From Ignavibacteria bacterium (lineage in GTDB: Bacteria; Bacteroidota; Ignavibacteria; Ch128b): 64,000 nt of DNA. Every line of letters starts with the position of its first letter. Positions within the stretch are counted from its first letter, which is position 1. Below are positions 3-9,510 of this stretch, one piece after another. Made by a program: the position numbers and the translations under genes. The stretch is taken from contig JABLYA010000001.1 of the NCBI GenBank assembly GCA_013177855.1, forward strand, positions 1,225,231 to 1,289,230, written 5' to 3'. The notes under the pieces are model-generated. The model made no database searches, was not told the DNA's origin, and saw only the letters and a program-made list of their open reading frames with translations.

Positions 3-932
3 AATTTTTTAAAAGAAAATGCTGCAATAAGACTTGAGGAGGTAAGTAATTGTTTAATTGAAAACAATATTCTCACAAATAATTTTTTCGGCATATACAT
101 TTCTAAATCGTTTAATTGTGTTGTAAGAAATAATAAGATCGAAGCTTTTAATAAATCGGAAACTACTTCTGGCAACGGAATTCATCTATGGTACAGCAAG
201 GCAATAACAATTGAAAATAACGAAATCACTGGTCACCGTGATGGAATATACTTTGAGTTTGTTAGACACTCCTTGGTTAAAAACAATTACAGCAAAAATA
301 ATTTGAGATATGGACTACACTTTATGTTTTCGGATAGCTGCTCGTACATAAAGAATACATTTGAAAATAATGGAGCCGGCGTTGCTGTAATGTATACCCG
401 AAATGTAACTATGAGAGAAAACAAATTTATAAACAATTGGGGAGCTGCTTCGTTTGGAGTTTTATTAAAAGATTTAAGTGATTGTTTAATTGAAAAAAAT
501 CTCTTTGAGCAGAATACAAATGGTTTATACCTCGAAGGATGCAATAGAATAACAGTTCGCTATAATAATTTTATCAATAATGGGTGGGGAATAAAATTAA
601 TGGCAAATTCGATGGATAATTATTTTTACGATAACAATTTTATTTCCAACTCATTCGATGTTCTTACAAACAGCAGAAATAATTTTAATTCATTTACAAG
701 AAATTACTGGAATAAATATAATGGTTTCGACCTCGATAGAGATGGATTTGGAGATGTTTTTTATAGACCTGTAAAAATGTTTTCCATAATTGTTGAAAGA
801 GAACAAGCATCACTGATTTTAATTCACAGTCTATTTGTGGAAATCCTGAACATTGCTGAAAGTATTCTTCCATCTTTAACTCCTGAAAATTTAAAAGACA
901 ATCAGCCAAGAATGTACCCAATTAAGATTTAA
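3..932 (+). CDS. nosD: NosD, copper-insertion protein of nitrous oxide reductase (5' partial)
   Basis: The frame is open from the left edge, so the true start lies outside the window; about 310 C-terminal residues are visible, against roughly 400 or more for the family. The protein is a right-handed parallel beta-helix built of Asn-rich turns (NNGxGI, ENNxF, YNNFxNN), and it carries the NosD-type stretch HLWYSK followed by YFEFV and YGLHFMFSD. NosD is a periplasmic protein that works with the NosFY ABC transporter to supply the copper-sulfide centre of nitrous oxide reductase NosZ. It stands 34 bp before nosF, as in clade II nos clusters. An internal TTG at 273 could be mistaken for the start, but the coding pattern continues upstream of it. 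A CASH-domain sugar hydrolase is the alternative; the neighbours make NosD much more likely. Confidence 0.9.
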   Translation, partial: NFLKENAAIRLEEVSNCLIENNILTNNFFGIYISKSFNCVVRNNKIEAFNKSETTSGNGIHLWYSKAITIENNEITGHRDGIYFEFVRHSLVKNNYSKNNLRYGLHFMFSDSCSYIKNTFENNGAGVAVMYTRNVTMRENKFINNWGAASFGVLLKDLSDCLIEKNLFEQNTNGLYLEGCNRITVRYNNFINNGWGIKLMANSMDNYFYDNNFISNSFDVLTNSRNNFNSFTRNYWNKYNGFDLDRDGFGDVFYRPVKMFSIIVEREQASLILIHSLFVEILNIAESILPSLTPENLKDNQPRMYPIKI

Positions 933-2551: not shown

Positions 2552-3817
2552 ATGAATGAACAAATTTCGGTTGCAGGAATCTACTCACCGCCTTTTAAAA
2601 TTGTCGTTAAGTATTTCATCGCTGCGATTATTTCATTCATTATTTTTAACCTAATGCTCGTAATTGATTATAAAAGTATTAGTGGTCATCACTTTCAACC
2701 AAAAATTTTATCCATTAATCACATACTTACATTAGGTTTTATTACAATGATAATTTTTGGAGCGATGTTTCAGCTTGTTCCTGTAGTTCTTGAAGTAAAA
2801 TTATTCAGTACAATCTTAGCTGAAATTCAATTCTGGATTTATACCTTTGGTGTAATTCTGCTCACTTATAAGTTTTATTACTTTTCTTCAAATTTAAGCT
2901 TCGTACTTCCAGCACTGCTTCTTTCACTTGCAATGATGATTTTCACGATAAACATAGTCATTTCGATGACAAAGGTTAAGAAATGGAATATTACAGGAAG
3001 TTACCTTGCGTCAGCATTATTCTGGTTATTAATCACTGCGTTGGCTGGTTATTTACTTTCTAAAAATCTTGATAAACCTTTCATTAAAATTAATCATCTT
3101 CAATATTTGAAACTTCACGCAATCACAGCTTTCGTCGGATGGGTCTCAATGGTTGTTATGGGAGTAAGTTTCAAGTTAATCCCAATGTTCACTTTATCTC
3201 ACGGCTATAAACTAACTTTAGCAAAATGGTCTTTCGTTCTAATTAATATTGGTTTACTCGGCATTAACTGGATAATGCATTATCCCGATACAGGTTTTTA
3301 TAATTTAATTTTTGGTGTATTGATTTTCTCTGGAATAATCCTTTACCTAATTCAAATCTTCATCATATTCAAGAAAAGAATTAGAAAGAAATTAGACATA
3401 GGTTTAAAGTTTTCTGCATTTGCATTTATAATGATGGGCTTTTCCTTACTTCTAAATTTTTCGTTTTTATTTTTTAATTATGAAAGCATTAAAAATTTAA
3501 CTCTCCTGTATGGCTTTACTGTGCTCGTCGGTTATGTTTCATTTTTAATTGTTGGACAAATGTATAAGATAGTCCCATTCCTTGTCTGGTATCATAAATA
3601 CAGCAGTAAAGTTGGGCTTCAACAAGTTCCAATGCTTAAAGATATGTTTAATGAAAAACTGGCGGAAATTCAATTTTATCTAATGATAGCAGGACTTGTT
3701 TTGTTAGTTCCGTCATTAATGATTGAGATAGAAATTTTAGTTTTTATTTCGTTTTTATTATTTGCTTTAAGCTCTTTCATCTTTGGATATAATATGATAA
3801 CAATTTTTAGGAGTTAG
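2552..3817 (+). CDS. Twelve-helix membrane protein, heme-copper-oxidase/NnrS-like, with three repeated modules
   Basis: A 421-residue, very hydrophobic protein with about 12 predicted membrane helices. It contains a 16-residue motif three times: G-x-[VI]-x-[MF]-x-x-x-G-x-x-[FY]-x-[LI]-[VI]-P at residues 62-77, 196-211 and 327-342, so the protein repeats about every 132 residues (four helices). Copies 1 and 2 are preceded by a His (H57, H189); copy 3 has no His. His-Gly-Pro patterns of this type occur in heme-copper oxidase subunit I and NnrS relatives. A role in NO/N2O metabolism, quinol oxidation or heme-copper sensing is inferred from location only. Stop and start codons of the neighbours are within 4 bp. 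It lacks the His-His pair and the other metal ligands of an active oxidase as far as I can see. Confidence 0.65.
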   Translation: MNEQISVAGIYSPPFKIVVKYFIAAIISFIIFNLMLVIDYKSISGHHFQPKILSINHILTLGFITMIIFGAMFQLVPVVLEVKLFSTILAEIQFWIYTFGVILLTYKFYYFSSNLSFVLPALLLSLAMMIFTINIVISMTKVKKWNITGSYLASALFWLLITALAGYLLSKNLDKPFIKINHLQYLKLHAITAFVGWVSMVVMGVSFKLIPMFTLSHGYKLTLAKWSFVLINIGLLGINWIMHYPDTGFYNLIFGVLIFSGIILYLIQIFIIFKKRIRKKLDIGLKFSAFAFIMMGFSLLLNFSFLFFNYESIKNLTLLYGFTVLVGYVSFLIVGQMYKIVPFLVWYHKYSSKVGLQQVPMLKDMFNEKLAEIQFYLMIAGLVLLVPSLMIEIEILVFISFLLFALSSFIFGYNMITIFRS

Positions 3818-4132: not shown

Positions 4133-4588
4133 ATGTTTTCAACAGTTAGATATTTTATCAAAACAAGTGTGATCTTTTTGATTGTTGGGATACTTACTGG
4201 TTTATATATGGCAGTTTCGAAATATGTATTCAAATATGGTTATTCTCAGGAATTGATTTCTGCTCACACGCATTTAATCCTTGTTGGTTCAGTTATGATG
4301 ATGATAATGGGAGTTGCATTATGGTTTTTCCCTCGTGCTGAAAAAGATGATAAAAAATACAATCCTAATTTAATTTTATTTACTTACTGGTTAATGACCA
4401 TAAGCACATCTCTCAGATTTATCTTTCAGGTGACTGCAAATTTTGTCTATTCTGAGTGGATTCATTATTTAATTGCAGCTAATTCATTCTTGCAAGTAGT
4501 TGCAATGAGTTTATTCTTCTATTCAATGTGGGGGAGAATAAGACCGGTGGGGAGTCACATTCGTGAAGCAAAAGGCGAAAAATTTTAA
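4133..4588 (+). CDS. Four-helix membrane protein, single heme-copper-oxidase-like module
   Basis: A 151-residue protein with about four membrane helices. Residues 45-67 carry HxH followed by the motif G-x-V-x-M-x-x-x-G-x-x-L-x-F-F-P (G52, G60, P67), the same 16-residue pattern that occurs three times in the 421-residue protein two genes upstream. Similar short proteins are sometimes labelled cbb3-type oxidase subunit I-like. The two histidines H45 and H47 could bind heme. It could act as an oligomer or complement the third, His-free module of the larger protein; both ideas are inference. Spacing to the DUF59 gene is 2 bp. Its C-terminal coding end lies 22 bp before the start chosen for the DoxX gene. 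Confidence 0.6.
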   Translation: MFSTVRYFIKTSVIFLIVGILTGLYMAVSKYVFKYGYSQELISAHTHLILVGSVMMMIMGVALWFFPRAEKDDKKYNPNLILFTYWLMTISTSLRFIFQVTANFVYSEWIHYLIAANSFLQVVAMSLFFYSMWGRIRPVGSHIREAKGEKF

Positions 4589-4610
4589 TCTACCAATAAA
4601 GGAGGTTTCA

Positions 4611-5018
4611 ATGTCAAAATATTTCAAATACTTCGAAGAGCGAAAATCCTTAGCGTACTCATACATAAGAATTTTTCTTGGATTTGCTCTTCTCATTAGA
4701 GGTTTGTTATTTGTAATGAATCCAAAAACTTTAACCGCTTTAGCAGGAAGCGAGCAAAATTTCTGGCTCTTTGCTTATGTCGCAGTGGGACATTTAATTG
4801 GTGGATTTTTACTTGGAATTGGTTACTTCACAAGACTTGCATCATTAATTCAAATTCCAATTTTATTTGGTGCAATCTTTATTTATCACTTAAAGCAAGG
4901 TTTATTGACTTCAGGACAATCACTCGAAATTTCTGTGCTTGTTTTATTCTTACTGATTATCTTTTTCTTATTTGGCGGTGGTGAGCTCAGTCTAGATAAT
5001 AGAAAATCATCAAAATGA
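4611..5018 (+). CDS. DoxX family membrane protein
   Basis: A protein of about 135 residues with four predicted membrane helices and the DoxX/DoxD pattern (RIFLGFALLIRGLLF near the N-terminus, then GHLIGGFLLGIGYFTRLASL). The start at 4611 is set by a strong GGAGG ribosome site 5 bases upstream; an earlier in-frame ATG at 4563 overlaps the preceding gene and would add a polar unconserved stretch. DoxX proteins are linked to thiosulfate:quinone oxidoreductase (DoxDA) and to other quinone-linked redox modules, but many members have no known reaction. No DoxA partner is visible. Here it may be part of a quinone-coupled membrane set within the nos cluster. Confidence 0.8.
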   Translation: MSKYFKYFEERKSLAYSYIRIFLGFALLIRGLLFVMNPKTLTALAGSEQNFWLFAYVAVGHLIGGFLLGIGYFTRLASLIQIPILFGAIFIYHLKQGLLTSGQSLEISVLVLFLLIIFFLFGGGELSLDNRKSSK

Positions 5019-5023
5019 TTTAA

Positions 5024-5515
5024 ATGTTTACAGTCAGAAACACAATCAGTACATTATTAATTTTATTTTACTTCATATTAATTAATGGCGAGTTAGTCTC
5101 ACTGGCTGAATATTATATTCGTTACGATTACATAGTAAAAAACCTTTGTGTTCAAAGAAACAAACTTAAAAACACTTGCAAGGGCTCCTGCCATTTGAAA
5201 GAAAATCTGGATAAAGTTGATGAAAATTCAAAAGAAATTCCTAAATCTATTGAGTTTAGAAATTTGATTTCTGTCGATACCCATCTTAATACAGTAAATC
5301 ATAATTATGAATATTCTTTATATGTAATCTCATTTCTGATTTTGAATAAATTGGACTACAAACAACAAACAGATATTGATGTTCTTACACCTCCTCCGAA
5401 ATTTTTCAAATACTTAAAATCAGAAATTAGAACAAGAGGAATTATCAAAATCAAAAAAATTTTGGAGGAGAACTATGAAAAGAATAATAATTACTTTAGC
5501 TATTATTATGATTAA
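5024..5515 (+). CDS. Small membrane-anchored Cys-rich protein preceding the copper receptor
   Basis: A 163-residue protein with one N-terminal hydrophobic segment (about 8-28) and then the motif C42-x9-C52-x3-C56-H57-L. The rest is polar and has no further Cys. I recall similar short proteins with a C-x-G-x-CHLxK core next to metal-related TonB receptors in Bacteroidota, but their function is not established; copper binding in the periplasm is a reasonable guess from the Cys/His cluster and the downstream copper receptor. Its last 41 bases overlap the start of the receptor gene, whose ribosome site GGAGGAG lies inside this gene, so the two are translationally linked. I do not recognise a named family. 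Confidence 0.7.
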   Translation: MFTVRNTISTLLILFYFILINGELVSLAEYYIRYDYIVKNLCVQRNKLKNTCKGSCHLKENLDKVDENSKEIPKSIEFRNLISVDTHLNTVNHNYEYSLYVISFLILNKLDYKQQTDIDVLTPPPKFFKYLKSEIRTRGIIKIKKILEENYEKNNNYFSYYYD

Positions 5516-7337
5516 CCTAAATTTTTCTTTTTCAAAAGAACCCGATACTTTACAAGTTTATGAATTACCACCAATACAAATTATTTCACAAAGAGGAATT
5601 CCATTCGTTGAAAAACACAAATATGGGACAGATTATAACAGCAATCTTTTAAATAAAAACGGTTTTGCTCTGGTCAGACGAGGACTTAACTTCACACAAG
5701 ATCTTTATGTGGAAGGCTTCAAAAAAGGCGATGTAAAAGTTAGTATTGATGGTGAACAGTACCATAATGCTTGCCCTAATAGAATGGATGCACCATCTAC
5801 AAGAATTAATTTAATGGATATTGAATCGGTTGAATTAACAAAATCATCTTCACTCACTGGAACAGGGCTGTATGGTAAAGTTGAATATCATCGAACAAAT
5901 CTCACAAATGACTTTAAATTAAAGTCGATGATAAATGGATCATTTGGTGCTTCAAGAGATTATGACTTATCGCTTTCAGGAGAAGGATTGAATTCTTCAA
6001 TCAGTTTCCGATATTCATCTGGTGAACCATATAAAAATGGTGCGGGTAAATCATTTAAAGATTTATATGGCTACACAGACAATTACAGATATTCTTACCT
6101 CAATAGTGCAATTAGACATAGACTAAATGATTTTAATATTGAATTTGGAGCAAATTTCACAGAAGCAAAAAATATTTCATTCCCATATCTACAAATGGAT
6201 GAAAGATCAAGCAAAGTTTTTGGTGCTTACATAAAATATCAAACTCATAAAATTTACTTTAATTACACCGATCACCTGATGAATAACGAACTCCGAAATT
6301 CAAATATGTTTATGGAAACGAAAGCAAGAAATTTAACTATTGGGTTAAGCAACAGTTCTTATGAAATAACTTACCGAAACTGGAATGCTGATAACTCGAT
6401 GAAAATGATGACTAATTCAATTAATAACAGGCTTATGCCCGATGTCCATCAACTTGAAGTAAATCTCTCTCAAAATTATTCATTTGACAAATTAAAAATT
6501 TATTTCAAAGGCGGATTAAATTTTATCACATTTAGAGATTTAACACGAAAATATTTTTATGAAGAGCTTTACAGAAATGTAAAAGATAAGAGATATTTTA
6601 TTTCATCAGGGATCTCGGCTTCTTATTCAACTCAACTAACAAGTGACTTTATTACCGGATTAATTGCTGATTTTGCATCAAACTCACCAGATCCTGAACA
6701 ACTATACATCGCTATTAAACGATTAATGACAAATCCCGACTGGAGTGGAAATCCAAATTTAAGTCAACCTTATCGTTTTGGATTACGTTCAGTTTTTAAT
6801 TACAAATTTTTTAATCTCGAGATTTATACAAATTATGTTGTCAACTATGTTGACATCGTAAAAAGAATGAAACCAGCAAAAGCCGTAATGACTTATGAAA
6901 ACACAAATGCTTTGTTGTTTGGTTCAAATCTTAATATTAAATACAAGCTCATTGAATCAAATATTTCTTACCTTTGGGGTGAAAATACAAAAACTCGAGC
7001 GCCGTTAGCTGAAATTGCACCACTTTCAATTTACACAACTTTAGAAATTCCTGTTTATAAGAATCTTAACCTATCACTTTTACACAGATATGAAAATGCA
7101 CAGAAAAGATTAAATACTGATTTAAAAGAATTTGCAACTTCTGCCTGGAATACTATTGGAATAGGCTTGAATTATAGTTGGAATGAAATCTATTTTGATT
7201 TGAGAGTTAATAATCTTCTAAATCATACTTATTACAAATATCTGTCATACTCTCGAAATCCATTTAGTGCAGGTATACCTGTTTTTGAACCTGGAAGAAG
7301 CATTGACTTTAATGTTTATTTTAAAAAGATTTTCTAA
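5475..7337 (+). CDS. TonB-dependent copper receptor, NosA/OprC-like
   Basis: A 620-residue outer-membrane receptor: signal peptide (1-20), plug domain (about 35-150), and a barrel ending in the aromatic C-terminus KKIF. The plug has G-E-Q-Y-H-N-A-C100-P-N-R-M104-D-A-P, matching the CxxxM copper(I) site known in OprC and the related NosA, and no carboxypeptidase-like N-terminal extension. NosA/OprC bind copper at the cell surface; in denitrifiers this copper serves NosZ. A Met/His-rich loop (MKMM ... LMPDVH) around residues 310-330 could provide further ligands. The start ATG at 5475 follows GGAGGAG. It lies within the nos cluster, upstream of nosY. A siderophore receptor is the alternative, but the CxxxM motif and neighbours argue for copper. 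Confidence 0.85.
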   Translation: MKRIIITLAIIMINLNFSFSKEPDTLQVYELPPIQIISQRGIPFVEKHKYGTDYNSNLLNKNGFALVRRGLNFTQDLYVEGFKKGDVKVSIDGEQYHNACPNRMDAPSTRINLMDIESVELTKSSSLTGTGLYGKVEYHRTNLTNDFKLKSMINGSFGASRDYDLSLSGEGLNSSISFRYSSGEPYKNGAGKSFKDLYGYTDNYRYSYLNSAIRHRLNDFNIEFGANFTEAKNISFPYLQMDERSSKVFGAYIKYQTHKIYFNYTDHLMNNELRNSNMFMETKARNLTIGLSNSSYEITYRNWNADNSMKMMTNSINNRLMPDVHQLEVNLSQNYSFDKLKIYFKGGLNFITFRDLTRKYFYEELYRNVKDKRYFISSGISASYSTQLTSDFITGLIADFASNSPDPEQLYIAIKRLMTNPDWSGNPNLSQPYRFGLRSVFNYKFFNLEIYTNYVVNYVDIVKRMKPAKAVMTYENTNALLFGSNLNIKYKLIESNISYLWGENTKTRAPLAEIAPLSIYTTLEIPVYKNLNLSLLHRYENAQKRLNTDLKEFATSAWNTIGIGLNYSWNEIYFDLRVNNLLNHTYYKYLSYSRNPFSAGIPVFEPGRSIDFNVYFKKIF

Positions 7338-7424: not shown

Positions 7425-8213
7425 ATGAAATACATTAAGAAAATTTTGAAATTTGAATTCAGCAATGTGATCAGGAGTCGATGGGTAATTTTCATCTTTG
7501 GATTTTTCTTCATCGTCTCATACGCACTATTTACATTTGAGTCAAATTCCCAGAAATCTCTTATCAGTCTTTTTAATCTTGTGATCTACCTTGTCCCTTT
7601 GATTGGCTTAATTTTTGGAACAATGTATTTCTACAACTCCAGAGAATATATTGAACTAATGCTCTGTCAACCTATTCCACGAGGAGCATTATATTTTGGC
7701 TTATTTCTTGGAACAACTCTTCCACTTTCTTTAAGCCTCGTTAGTGGAATACTTTTACCATACATTTTATTCAATCAAGATCAAAATCATTTTAATCTTA
7801 TTTTCATATTAATGATTGAAAGCATCACTCTTACATTTATTTCAATTTCAATTTCATTTTTAATTTCAACAAAACTTTCTGATAAAGTTAAAGGTCTAAG
7901 TCTTTCTCTCTTCTTATATTTGATAATGTCAATTGCCTTTGATGGGCTGATGCTTTTATTCATTTTTATGTTCAGTGATTATCCAATTGAAAAATTTTTG
8001 CTCTTCCTGTCGTTACTAAATCCAGTTAATTTATCAAGAACGCTTTTCGTTCTAAACTTTGATACATCAGCTTTGATGGGATTAACAGGCGCTATATTTA
8101 GAAAATTTTATGGAAGTTTTTTCGGGACAATAGTCTCAGCAATTTCTTTAATCCTGTGGACAGTTATTCCTTTATGGATTGGGCTAAAAAATTTTAATAA
8201 AAAAGATTTCTGA
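7425..8213 (+). CDS. nosY: NosY, ABC transporter permease for NosZ maturation
   Basis: A 262-residue membrane protein with about six helices and the NosY/ABC-2 pattern: an N-terminal cytoplasmic helix before the first membrane span (FEFSNVIRSRWVI), then NSREYIELMLCQPIPRGALYFG, typical of NosY. It forms the membrane part of the NosDFY complex that transmits ATP-driven motion to periplasmic NosD for NosZ copper-site assembly. It stands alone after the receptor gene, 87 bp downstream, separated by the hairpin at 7357-7390. The distance from nosF is unusual, but no other ABC-2 permease is in the block to serve NosF. Confidence 0.85.
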   Translation: MKYIKKILKFEFSNVIRSRWVIFIFGFFFIVSYALFTFESNSQKSLISLFNLVIYLVPLIGLIFGTMYFYNSREYIELMLCQPIPRGALYFGLFLGTTLPLSLSLVSGILLPYILFNQDQNHFNLIFILMIESITLTFISISISFLISTKLSDKVKGLSLSLFLYLIMSIAFDGLMLLFIFMFSDYPIEKFLLFLSLLNPVNLSRTLFVLNFDTSALMGLTGAIFRKFYGSFFGTIVSAISLILWTVIPLWIGLKNFNKKDF

Positions 8214-8271: not shown

Positions 8272-9510
8272 ATGAAATCTCTCATTTCCACTTTTCTCTT
8301 TGTTTCATTTCTCTCGTTGCAGTTATATGCAAATATTTGCGTAAACTGTCATAAAACTATCACACCAAATATCGTGAGTGACTGGCAACTCTCTAAACAC
8401 TCACAGAATGATATAACCTGTGATGTTTGTCATGGTAAAGAACATAATAATGCATCAAATGTTGATAAAGTATCAATGCCAAATCCCGAAGTATGTAAAC
8501 AATGTCACGAGATACAAGTTCAACAGTTTAGTAAAGGCAAACATTCTTTCGCCTGGGCAGCAATGAAAGCAATGCCAACTGTTCATTTCCAACCAATGTA
8601 CCTTACAGAAGGAATGAAGGGATGCGGCGGTTGTCATAAAATTGGATTAAAATCCGATGAAGAAATAAAACAACTCAAAGCGCAGGGTCAACAGCACGGC
8701 GTAGCAAGCTGTGATGCCTGTCACACTAGACATACTTTTTCCAAAAAAGAAGCTCAGCAACCACAAGCCTGTCAAACCTGTCATATGGGTTTTGATCATC
8801 CACAATGGGAAATGTATTCAGCTTCAAAACATGGCGTCAGATATTTACTTAAACAAAATGGAACTCTTCCCGAAGGAACAGCTGCACCAACTTGTCAAAC
8901 CTGTCATATGCAAAATGGAAATCATGAAGTAAGAACTGCATGGGGTTTCTTAGCTGTTAGATTACCTTTGCCAGAAGATGAGGAATGGAAAAAAGATCAA
9001 ATAACTATCTTACAGGCTCTCGGTGTTTTAGATCCAGAAGGAAATCCTACAAAACTTGTTGATGTTGTTAAAGCTGCTGATGTAGCAAGATTGACCAAAG
9101 AAGACTTTGATCGTGAAAGAAATAAAATGATTAAGACCTGTGGTGATTGTCATTCTGAAAAGTTCGCTAAAGCAGAGCTTGAAAAAGGTGATAAGATGAT
9201 CCGGGCTGCCGATAAATTAATGGCAGAAGCTATACGCACTGTTGCAGCACTTTATAAAGATGGAATAATTGAAAAACCAAAAGATTATCCTTATGCATTT
9301 CCATTGCTCTTAACTTTTCATGATGCATCGACTGTGATTGAACAAAAATTATTTGTTATGTTCCTTGAACACAGAATGCGAACATTTCAAGGGACATTTC
9401 ATGCAAATCCTGATTATGCTCTGTGGTATGGCTGGAGTGAAATGGTTAGAGATTTATCGGAGATTAAAGAACTTGCAGCTCAAATGCGTCGAGAAAAACA
9501 AATGAGATAA
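8272..9510 (+). CDS. Octaheme c-type cytochrome, hydroxylamine oxidoreductase (HAO)-like
   Basis: A 412-residue secreted cytochrome: signal peptide (1-20) and eight CxxCH heme sites beginning at residues 23, 50, 75, 118, 147, 167, 208 and 290. The number, the N-terminal clustering and the long heme-free helical C-terminus fit the HAO family. Family members oxidise hydroxylamine or hydrazine, or run in reverse as nitrite or NO reductases; forms without the catalytic-heme crosslinking Tyr are thought to be reductive. Tyr residues occur in NPDYALWYGWSEM (Y382, Y386), but whether either matches the crosslinking Tyr needs an alignment. A GGAGG site precedes the ATG. It is the last gene before the terminator at 9536 and so closes the nos cluster. 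Pentaheme NrfA is excluded by heme count and the lack of CxxCK. Confidence 0.8.
   Translation: MKSLISTFLFVSFLSLQLYANICVNCHKTITPNIVSDWQLSKHSQNDITCDVCHGKEHNNASNVDKVSMPNPEVCKQCHEIQVQQFSKGKHSFAWAAMKAMPTVHFQPMYLTEGMKGCGGCHKIGLKSDEEIKQLKAQGQQHGVASCDACHTRHTFSKKEAQQPQACQTCHMGFDHPQWEMYSASKHGVRYLLKQNGTLPEGTAAPTCQTCHMQNGNHEVRTAWGFLAVRLPLPEDEEWKKDQITILQALGVLDPEGNPTKLVDVVKAADVARLTKEDFDRERNKMIKTCGDCHSEKFAKAELEKGDKMIRAADKLMAEAIRTVAALYKDGIIEKPKDYPYAFPLLLTFHDASTVIEQKLFVMFLEHRMRTFQGTFHANPDYALWYGWSEMVRDLSEIKELAAQMRREKQMR

Follow-up and report, generated by a model that had tools for sequence, protein, structure and literature searches.

What does a small protein do when its gene lies directly ahead of a TonB-dependent receptor gene, in a run of nitrous-oxide reductase (nos) genes? 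We asked this of a locus from an Ignavibacteria bacterium (assembly GCA_013177855.1, contig JABLYA010000001.1), within a 64,000-nucleotide stretch of the forward strand that we call the window; all coordinates are positions in it. A sequence-only reading had suggested that the pair may be a copper-binding surface receptor and a periplasmic copper acceptor that feed NosZ. The coordinates of the open reading frames (ORFs) and their translations confirmed the pair, its motifs C42-x9-C52-x3-C56-H57 (small protein) and C100-P-N-R-M104 (receptor), and the overlap of the two ORFs by 41 nt (5475-5515). We arrive at a different role for the small protein. From comparisons of the family's sequences, we propose that the small ORF is a cis-acting leader whose nascent chain senses copper and controls the receptor by ribosome stalling, and we give this a probability of roughly 75%. 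The features on which the proposal rests are:

5024..5515, + strand: small ORF of 163 amino acids, the proposed copper-sensing leader (upstream ORF)
5147..5191, + strand: Cys cluster, codons C42 to C56 (C-x9-C-x-G-x-C), invariant in the family; proposed Cu(I) site
5390..5398, + strand: codons P123-P125 (CCT CCT CCG), aligned with the family's invariant Pro-Pro; proposed stall site
5391..5406, + strand: 5' arm of a 16-bp RNA stem with a 48-nt loop; overlaps the Pro codons
5455..5470, + strand: 3' arm of the stem; holds the receptor's Shine-Dalgarno-like GGAGGAG (5464-5470)
5475..7337, + strand: OprC-like TonB-dependent receptor of 620 amino acids, with the C100 and M104 codons at 5772-5786 and the H267 and M269 codons at 6273-6281

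Is the receptor a copper receptor? Its plug motif is matched in the barrel by H267-x-M269, the other half of the OprC copper site, so the CxxxM that had been noticed is part of a complete OprC-type CxxxM-HxM site. In a sequence match to the Protein Data Bank (PDB), C100, M104, H267 and M269 align with C143, M147, H323 and M325 of OprC, which are its copper ligands (PMC8610252). OprC chains were the only PDB matches by sequence at E up to 0.01. A model of the receptor (pLDDT 87.6) had only OprC among its ten top PDB fold matches (TM 0.71-0.75), although it is shorter than the best OprC chain and only 17% identical to it in the fold alignment. Its score against the NCBIfam model TIGR01778 ("TonB-dependent copper receptor") was 68 bits, below the cut-off of 472, and by sequence we class it as a relative of that family and not an equivalog. 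All four ligand positions are invariant across 36 aligned receptors from a receptor-baited search, whose pattern included CxxxM and did not include HxM. Among 34 receptors of two classes that lie near leaders, HxM is present in all 34 and the plug cysteine (CxxxM) in 29. In four leader-adjacent receptors (L079, L092, L104 and L119), the plug motif reads GPxRM, with the Met and HxM kept, and one further receptor is cut. Because OprC is the best match by both sequence and fold and the four ligand positions are kept, the receptor likely imports copper, and its assignment to the OprC/NosA-like copper type stands.

The small protein contains, in order, an N-terminal hydrophobic helix (presumably a membrane anchor or signal), the Cys cluster, a low-confidence linker, the Pro-Pro motif, and an extension of 38 residues. 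It had no match in Pfam, NCBIfam or PHROG at E up to 1, and no relative with a solved structure was found (the fold of its low-confidence model was not used as a query). Among the top matches listed in our literature searches, none was about this family itself. We built a profile from seven members and searched 395 genomes of the phylum Bacteroidota with it; the family is present in 138 of these genomes and in 69 of 171 genera. From the best 150 places we fetched 100 loci with 112 copies, so the fetched loci favour strong matches. With four proteins from earlier loci and the window protein, this gave 117 members, of which 103 were aligned (the other 14, L138 among them, are mostly close or second copies).

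The only invariant columns in the alignment are C42, C52, G54, C56 and the Pro-Pro, and the same columns are invariant over the window protein and 33 leaders from the receptor-baited search. We conclude that the cysteine motif is more than chance. The Cys pattern is found in 116 of the 117 members, all 116 of which have the Pro-Pro; the remaining member, L138, has another Cys spacing and yet has FHPP near its end. (The profile includes the Pro-Pro column, and several listed matches that end earlier, for instance at positions 4-74, still have the motif.) Among the 116, the residue before the Pro-Pro is H in 62, R in 20 and P in 19 (mostly one of H, R, P, Q and K), and the end mostly reads F-H-P-P. 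The distance from the third cysteine to the Pro-Pro is 62-74 residues (68 in the window protein), across a linker that is poorly conserved; past residue 70, most of the model has low confidence. In 110 of the 116 members, the stop codon comes 1-5 residues past the Pro-Pro, unlike in the window protein. The description as a CxxxCH protein holds for the window's small protein but does not extend to its family: across 115 relatives, the third cysteine is followed by Y in 42, by H in 29 and by Q in 21. Because H57 is not a family feature, the motif is better written C-x9-C-x-G-x-C, and we rejected CxxxCH as a haem-like or family motif.

We also looked for the family among known domains. The 103 members matched 23 Pfam families at E up to 0.1, and DUF2946 (PF11162) is not among them (profile-profile comparison was not made); nor did PF11162 match anything in the window's genome. 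Weak matches to DAN, TGF-beta and DUF6769 (in 6, 6 and 5 of the 103 members; best E 0.00063, 0.0065 and 0.0022) were taken as chance. A search of 30 genomes for DUF6769, with leaders present in 29, found nothing at E 0.001.

The window is unusual in how the two genes meet. A next start was found for 109 of the 117 leaders. There is a gap at 107 of these junctions, with a median over all 109 of 127 nt (62 nt in the same-genus locus L004), and an overlap only in the window and at L136. Coupling by overlap is thus a local oddity, and we rejected it as a general rule. Because the +1 frame after the window's Pro codons stops after five codons, a difference in the length of the T5 run past these codons could explain the 41-nt overlap; such a difference could be natural or a sequencing error.

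If the small protein is a leader, it should matter what it leads. We clustered the neighbouring genes and named the recurring clusters from one representative each where scanned, or by motif. For 106 of the 112 fetched copies, at least one of the first three downstream genes on the same strand belongs to a recurring class of metal-uptake-module gene: MbnP (PF20243; 44 copies), an MbnH-like di-haem enzyme (36), a CGC outer-membrane protein (28), a receptor class with PepSY_TM partners (23), OprC-like receptors (19), a YtkA-like lipoprotein (15), SCO1 or SCO1-like proteins (14), ACTDKM receptors (14), and others. If only the copper-named classes (MbnP, MbnH, SCO1, OprC-like and ACTDKM) are counted, this is 80 of 112. 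Control regions of 20 kb, twenty in all and placed arbitrarily in the same genomes, offered 352 gene positions, none of which held a module class. The gap after the leader is longer than the gap that follows it (medians 133 and 52 nt, p 9e-8, 91 operons). The window leader directly precedes its receptor but within a longer gene run. At five loci (L062, L066, L067, L090 and L118), a gene run contains two leaders, and each leader stands immediately ahead of a module of its own. L041 (genome G011) departs most clearly from the module rule: there, a leader with all motifs lies beside a methyltransferase-like gene (named by eye).

These neighbours do not point to NosZ. Counting nosZ as a TIGR04246 match over the cut-off (other nosZ models were not searched), 50 genomes have both the leader and nosZ, 88 the leader only, 77 nosZ only, and 180 neither (odds ratio 1.33, p 0.22). 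Among the 88 is G399, whose nosZ is split into two parts that score under the cut-off. A nosZ gene lies within 14 kb of 10 of the best 150 leader copies, the window's included. The suggestion of a link to nos genes was correct in that the pair lies in a nos cluster, but service to NosZ is not supported. With 88 of 138 leader genomes lacking a nosZ match over the cut-off and the small protein also heading MbnP/MbnH, SCO1 and other receptor modules, the idea of an acceptor that feeds NosZ is probably wrong. For the small protein, this is the outcome that the sequence-only reading had itself named as a refutation. We rejected a NosZ-specific role on the lack of association across genomes.

How might such a leader act on the next gene? 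In the window, 5391-5406 pairs with 5455-5470 without a break (16 bp, one G-U). The fold has an energy of -18.3 kcal/mol (z -2.85; 1 of 200 shuffles was equally good), and the stem is the only one of at least 16 bp with a loop of 20-80 nt on the + strand of the 64 kb. A scan of 4900-5700 against Rfam gave no family over its gathering score. At L004 the pairing is preserved with different letters, and at L146 a CCCCCT/AGGGGG pair takes the place of the window stem. Because CCTCC and GGAGG pair anyway, we tested the whole locus set. Bacteroidota mostly lack Shine-Dalgarno sequences, and most loci of the set lack one by eye.

For each locus, the segment from the Pro codons to the stop was paired with positions -30 to +3 of the next gene (108 junctions with L136 skipped, reduced to 82 non-redundant loci). 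The loci's own pairs averaged -7.5 kcal/mol, versus -4.55 for permuted pairs (z -13.2, 0 of 20,000 permutations). When the permutation was kept within G+C bins, z was -8.0 to -9.5, again with 0 of 20,000. With sliding segments, from which the window was left out, z reached -13.7 in a single combination, where the 24 nt that begin with the first Pro codon face the 24 nt immediately upstream of the start. As a control, the ends of second genes against the starts of third genes gave z -1.1 (n=48). Among the 58 loci whose pairing is -6 or better, the position of the 5' arm peaks at +13 nt, counted from the first of the two Pro codons in the last Pro-Pro. This is about where the leading edge of a ribosome stalled at the Pro-Pro would lie, given its footprint.

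The receptor-baited loci gave a second set. We used the best 80 of more loci found. The named best matches are from Ignavibacterium, Melioribacteraceae and the like, and our use of the phylum name for the searched genomes rests on them. A leader lies upstream in 40 of the 80 (within 600 nt in 38), and all 40 have the Pro-Pro; many of the 40 loci without a leader are from other phyla or on short contigs. We tested 38 of the 40 (L220 and L221 have gaps over 600 nt), minus L149 and L198, which already belong to the first set; after de-duplication, 31 loci gave z -6.4. Four loci (L171, L179, L184 and L200) each resemble a locus of the first set (similarity ratio 0.76-0.78); when these near-matches were removed and permutation was kept within G+C bins, z was -4.6 to -4.9 (n=30). 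The pairing is a property of the locus set and not of every member.

The remaining receptor loci extend the picture. At 16 of the 40 without a leader of the family, there is a short upstream ORF that ends in Pro-Pro. We kept 11 and dropped five that looked spurious in G+C-rich DNA. The 11 include ORFs with other Cys clusters from Balneolaceae and relatives, ORFs without a Cys cluster, one with CKASC, and one from a Leptospiraceae record. In these ORFs, too, own pairs are stronger than permuted ones (z -3.4, p 0.0016, n=11; for L210, the script used a different ORF from the one seen earlier). These variant leaders suggest that the sensor parts are exchangeable. We also note leaders of the same layout before similar receptors at L189, L204, L207 and L210 and at L185, L190, L196 and L206, with another Cys cluster (Balneolaceae and relatives) or none. 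Separately, the phylum contains a few DUF2946-like leaders that end in SRAPP and have His-rich parts (L142, L143, L144 and L145); they lie near genes for TonB-receptor-like or small secreted proteins. PF11162 was found at E 0.001 in 5 of 148 genomes of the phylum, 2 of them over the cut-off. L141 has RGPP near the leader's end.

We propose the following mechanism. During synthesis, the N-terminal helix would enter the membrane and the three-cysteine cluster would be exported. Close to the C-terminus, at the Pro-Pro(-Pro), the ribosome would be prone to stall. The Cys cluster would then be about 68 residues from the peptidyl-transferase centre, out of the ribosome and the translocon, in the periplasm. 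About 30 residues fit in the tunnel and 17 in the membrane, and a site at 45 residues was placed at the vestibule (PMC9973294), so a site 68 residues away would be periplasmic. The stalled ribosome would cover or melt the 5' arm of the hairpin; the receptor's ribosome-binding site lies in the 3' arm. At low copper, the receptor would be translated. Cu(I) bound to the cysteines would relieve the stall, the ribosome would leave, the hairpin would close, and the receptor would be off. The family, its motifs and their spacing, its place before metal-uptake and copper genes, and the RNA pairing with its specificity are features of the sequences themselves; from them we infer copper binding, stalling and export of the leader. 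The sign of the copper response is taken by analogy from CruR of Bordetella pertussis and from the logic of an uptake gene.

Several observations weigh against this proposal. In the window's small ORF, 38 more residues are encoded after the Pro codons, and any ribosome that did not stall would therefore traverse the hairpin. F-H-P-P differs from the RAPP motif that has been shown to arrest, and the Pro-rich end of CutF alone was not a strong stall in a published test (PMC9973294). The pairing is uneven: a locus's own pairing falls within the top 5% at just 18 of the 82 loci and within the top 10% at 28, there is next to no pairing at some loci (L202 and L225), and two SCO1 loci tested for pairing showed no excess. 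In the other 35 cells of the sliding test, z was -0.1 to -4.4, with own pairs weakly better everywhere; because of this, plain permutation overstates the signal, hence the G+C bins. The start codons of the next genes were set by rule. As to the neighbours, 26 of the 112 copies have only classes that are not copper-named and 6 have none. Most of the 26 precede the PepSY-linked receptor; in NCBIfam, this receptor class scores best against a model for siderophore receptors, without reaching the cut-off. Since we drew up the module classes on the very loci tested, the control of 0 in 352 shows that they are rare and not that they have a copper function. The recounts with G+C bins and with copper-named classes weaken single figures and not the proposal as a whole.

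Three other explanations need to be weighed. The best of them is an attenuator of the CruR type, in which the Pro-Pro stall would block Rho-dependent termination between leader and receptor and the hairpin would be secondary. CruR is the closest precedent before a receptor gene and acts in this way with a 162-nt gap (PMC9426467). Long gaps between leader and next gene are also found here, and the hairpin is weak or absent at part of the loci. However, the pairing specifically involves the 24 nt that precede the next start, which is what translational control would predict. Also, because the window's leader lies 5 nt past doxX, within the nos run and upstream of a NosY-like gene, termination there would cut off the NosY-like gene too. 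We consider this explanation rather unlikely.

Alternatively, the layout could be as we propose and the sign reversed. For CutF of Rhodobacter capsulatus, copper is reported to prolong the stall, which switches on a detoxifying oxidase (PMC9973294). The RNA layout here is as in CutF, where a stem-loop shields the Shine-Dalgarno sequence of cutO (PMC9973294). But many of the genes downstream of our leaders are uptake receptors and therefore should be on at low copper, and oprC and bfrG/crtA are reported to be repressed by copper (PMC9426467 and PMC8610252). A CutF-like sign is improbable for this family.

Finally, a membrane-anchored periplasmic protein that receives copper from the receptor and hands it over, as an acceptor or chaperone, would fit the invariant Cys cluster right after a hydrophobic helix and the location mostly beside genes for copper uptake or copper-enzyme assembly, but we think it improbable, as it leaves unexplained the Pro-Pro so close to the stop, the constrained spacing across a poorly conserved linker, the first position before different modules, and the pairing of the 3' end with the next start, and as its analogues CruR (PMC9426467) and CutF (PMC9973294) are reported to be short-lived and not trans-acting. 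A double role as acceptor and leader is possible.

Around the pair, the window contains these other genes:

273..932, + strand: NosD, partial as listed in the window; whole in L010
967..1683, + strand: ABC ATPase of the nos cluster, NosF-like ("NosF" from its position)
4563..5018, + strand: DoxX-family membrane protein, ending 5 nt before the small ORF
7425..8213, + strand: ABC2-type membrane protein (PF12679), NosY-like ("NosY" from its position), the next gene past the receptor

Because the DoxX gene ends so close to it, the small ORF sits inside the nos gene run. The start of nosZ (TIGR04246, 973.6 bits), which we take to be of clade II, is 8.6 kb upstream of the small ORF. Between the two lie the genes for NosD and the NosF-like ATPase, and cupin-like and NosL-like ORFs (named by eye). 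The run also includes two membrane proteins with weak likeness to COX1 (2552-3817 and 4133-4588), the second of which has a match to NnrS below the cut-off as well, and adjoining them a DUF1858/DUF2249 protein (1688-2548). After the nos genes there is a multi-haem c-type cytochrome (8272-9510) with weak likeness to hydrazine dehydrogenase (88 bits; cut-off 900).

On its most far-reaching reading, the family would be a separate, unnamed class of nascent-chain metal sensor, outside DUF2946 and the RAPP leaders, that regulates copper uptake in Bacteroidota. With its site some 68 residues away from the stall and past the translocon, it would read periplasmic rather than cytosolic copper. The Pro codons and stop of the leader would double as one arm of a hairpin that hinders initiation. 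It would also be modular, because the same end of Pro-Pro plus hairpin carries other sensor parts before similar receptors. We would give this combined reading, in all its parts, even odds. Copper sensing for uptake is little described for Bacteroidota in the literature that we found, and a family that has no Pfam or NCBIfam model gains a concrete proposed mechanism. Our proposal predicts that several outer-membrane modules that lack an assignment (MbnP/MbnH, the ACTDKM receptors and the PepSY-linked receptor class) are regulated by copper. If it is true, then many "hypothetical proteins" are a testable switch.

The receptor resembles OprC/NosA (TIGR01778; PMC8610252) in its fold and its CxxxM-HxM site. 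For the leader, the nearest known systems are CruR and CutF. CruR (bp2923, a DUF2946 protein; PMC9426467) is likewise a short protein with a Cys motif and a C-terminal Pro-Pro (three residues before the end in CruR); it is exported, as we presume for our leaders, and is encoded by the first gene of an operon for a copper TonB-dependent receptor. Copper on its nascent chain is proposed to relieve an arrest, after which Rho ends transcription before the receptor gene (PMC9426467); the arrest was shown in vitro (PMC12992588). CruR homologues are reported before genes for OprC, PepSY, MbnPH and Sco (PMC9426467), and our family shares this trait of coming first before copper-homeostasis genes (80 of 112 copies by copper-named class). 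The two differ in that CruR has CXXC and R-A-P-P, 45 residues apart, whereas our leaders have C-x9-C-x-G-x-C and mostly F-H-P-P, 62-74 residues apart, and in that CruR works through Rho termination, whereas our leaders have a hairpin at the next start.

CutF (PMC9973294) is similar in its CxxxC, its C-terminal Pro-rich motif, its Sec export and the stem-loop over the next Shine-Dalgarno sequence. Unlike our family, CutF is placed in DUF2946, with 45 residues between its motifs (PMC9973294). The same work lists 5,334 CutF-like proteins, and because Bacteroidota are included, relatives of our family may be on that list; nearly 60% of the CutF-like cases with a short gap or an overlap precede genes for nitrous-oxide reductase or NosR. 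Most of our relatives would pass the CutF-like filters (under 150 amino acids, PP within 15 residues of the C-terminus), and the window protein (163 amino acids, PP 38 from the end) would fail. An export signal, which with CxxxC and a same-strand neighbour completes the CutF-like criteria, is presumed for our leaders, and a stem-loop over the next ribosome-binding site is found as the window stem and in the family average.

As in the SecM-type arrest peptides, a stall of an exported leader would open a hairpin at the next gene; those peptides differ in monitoring secretion rather than a metal and in their RAGP/RAPP motif. Other work covers CrtA (PMC12914433) and CrpH (PMC13038864); see also PMC10987492. 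Copper-related RAPP/RGPP leaders are reported to be absent from Bacteroidota (EMBO J 2025, PMC12992588), and because they are said to be missing there, our family would fill that gap. The position at which metal is read on the nascent chain, 45 residues from the stall in CruR and CutF versus about 68 in our leaders, makes a natural comparison. We view the leader family as a widespread regulatory family, a variant of the CruR/CutF kind.

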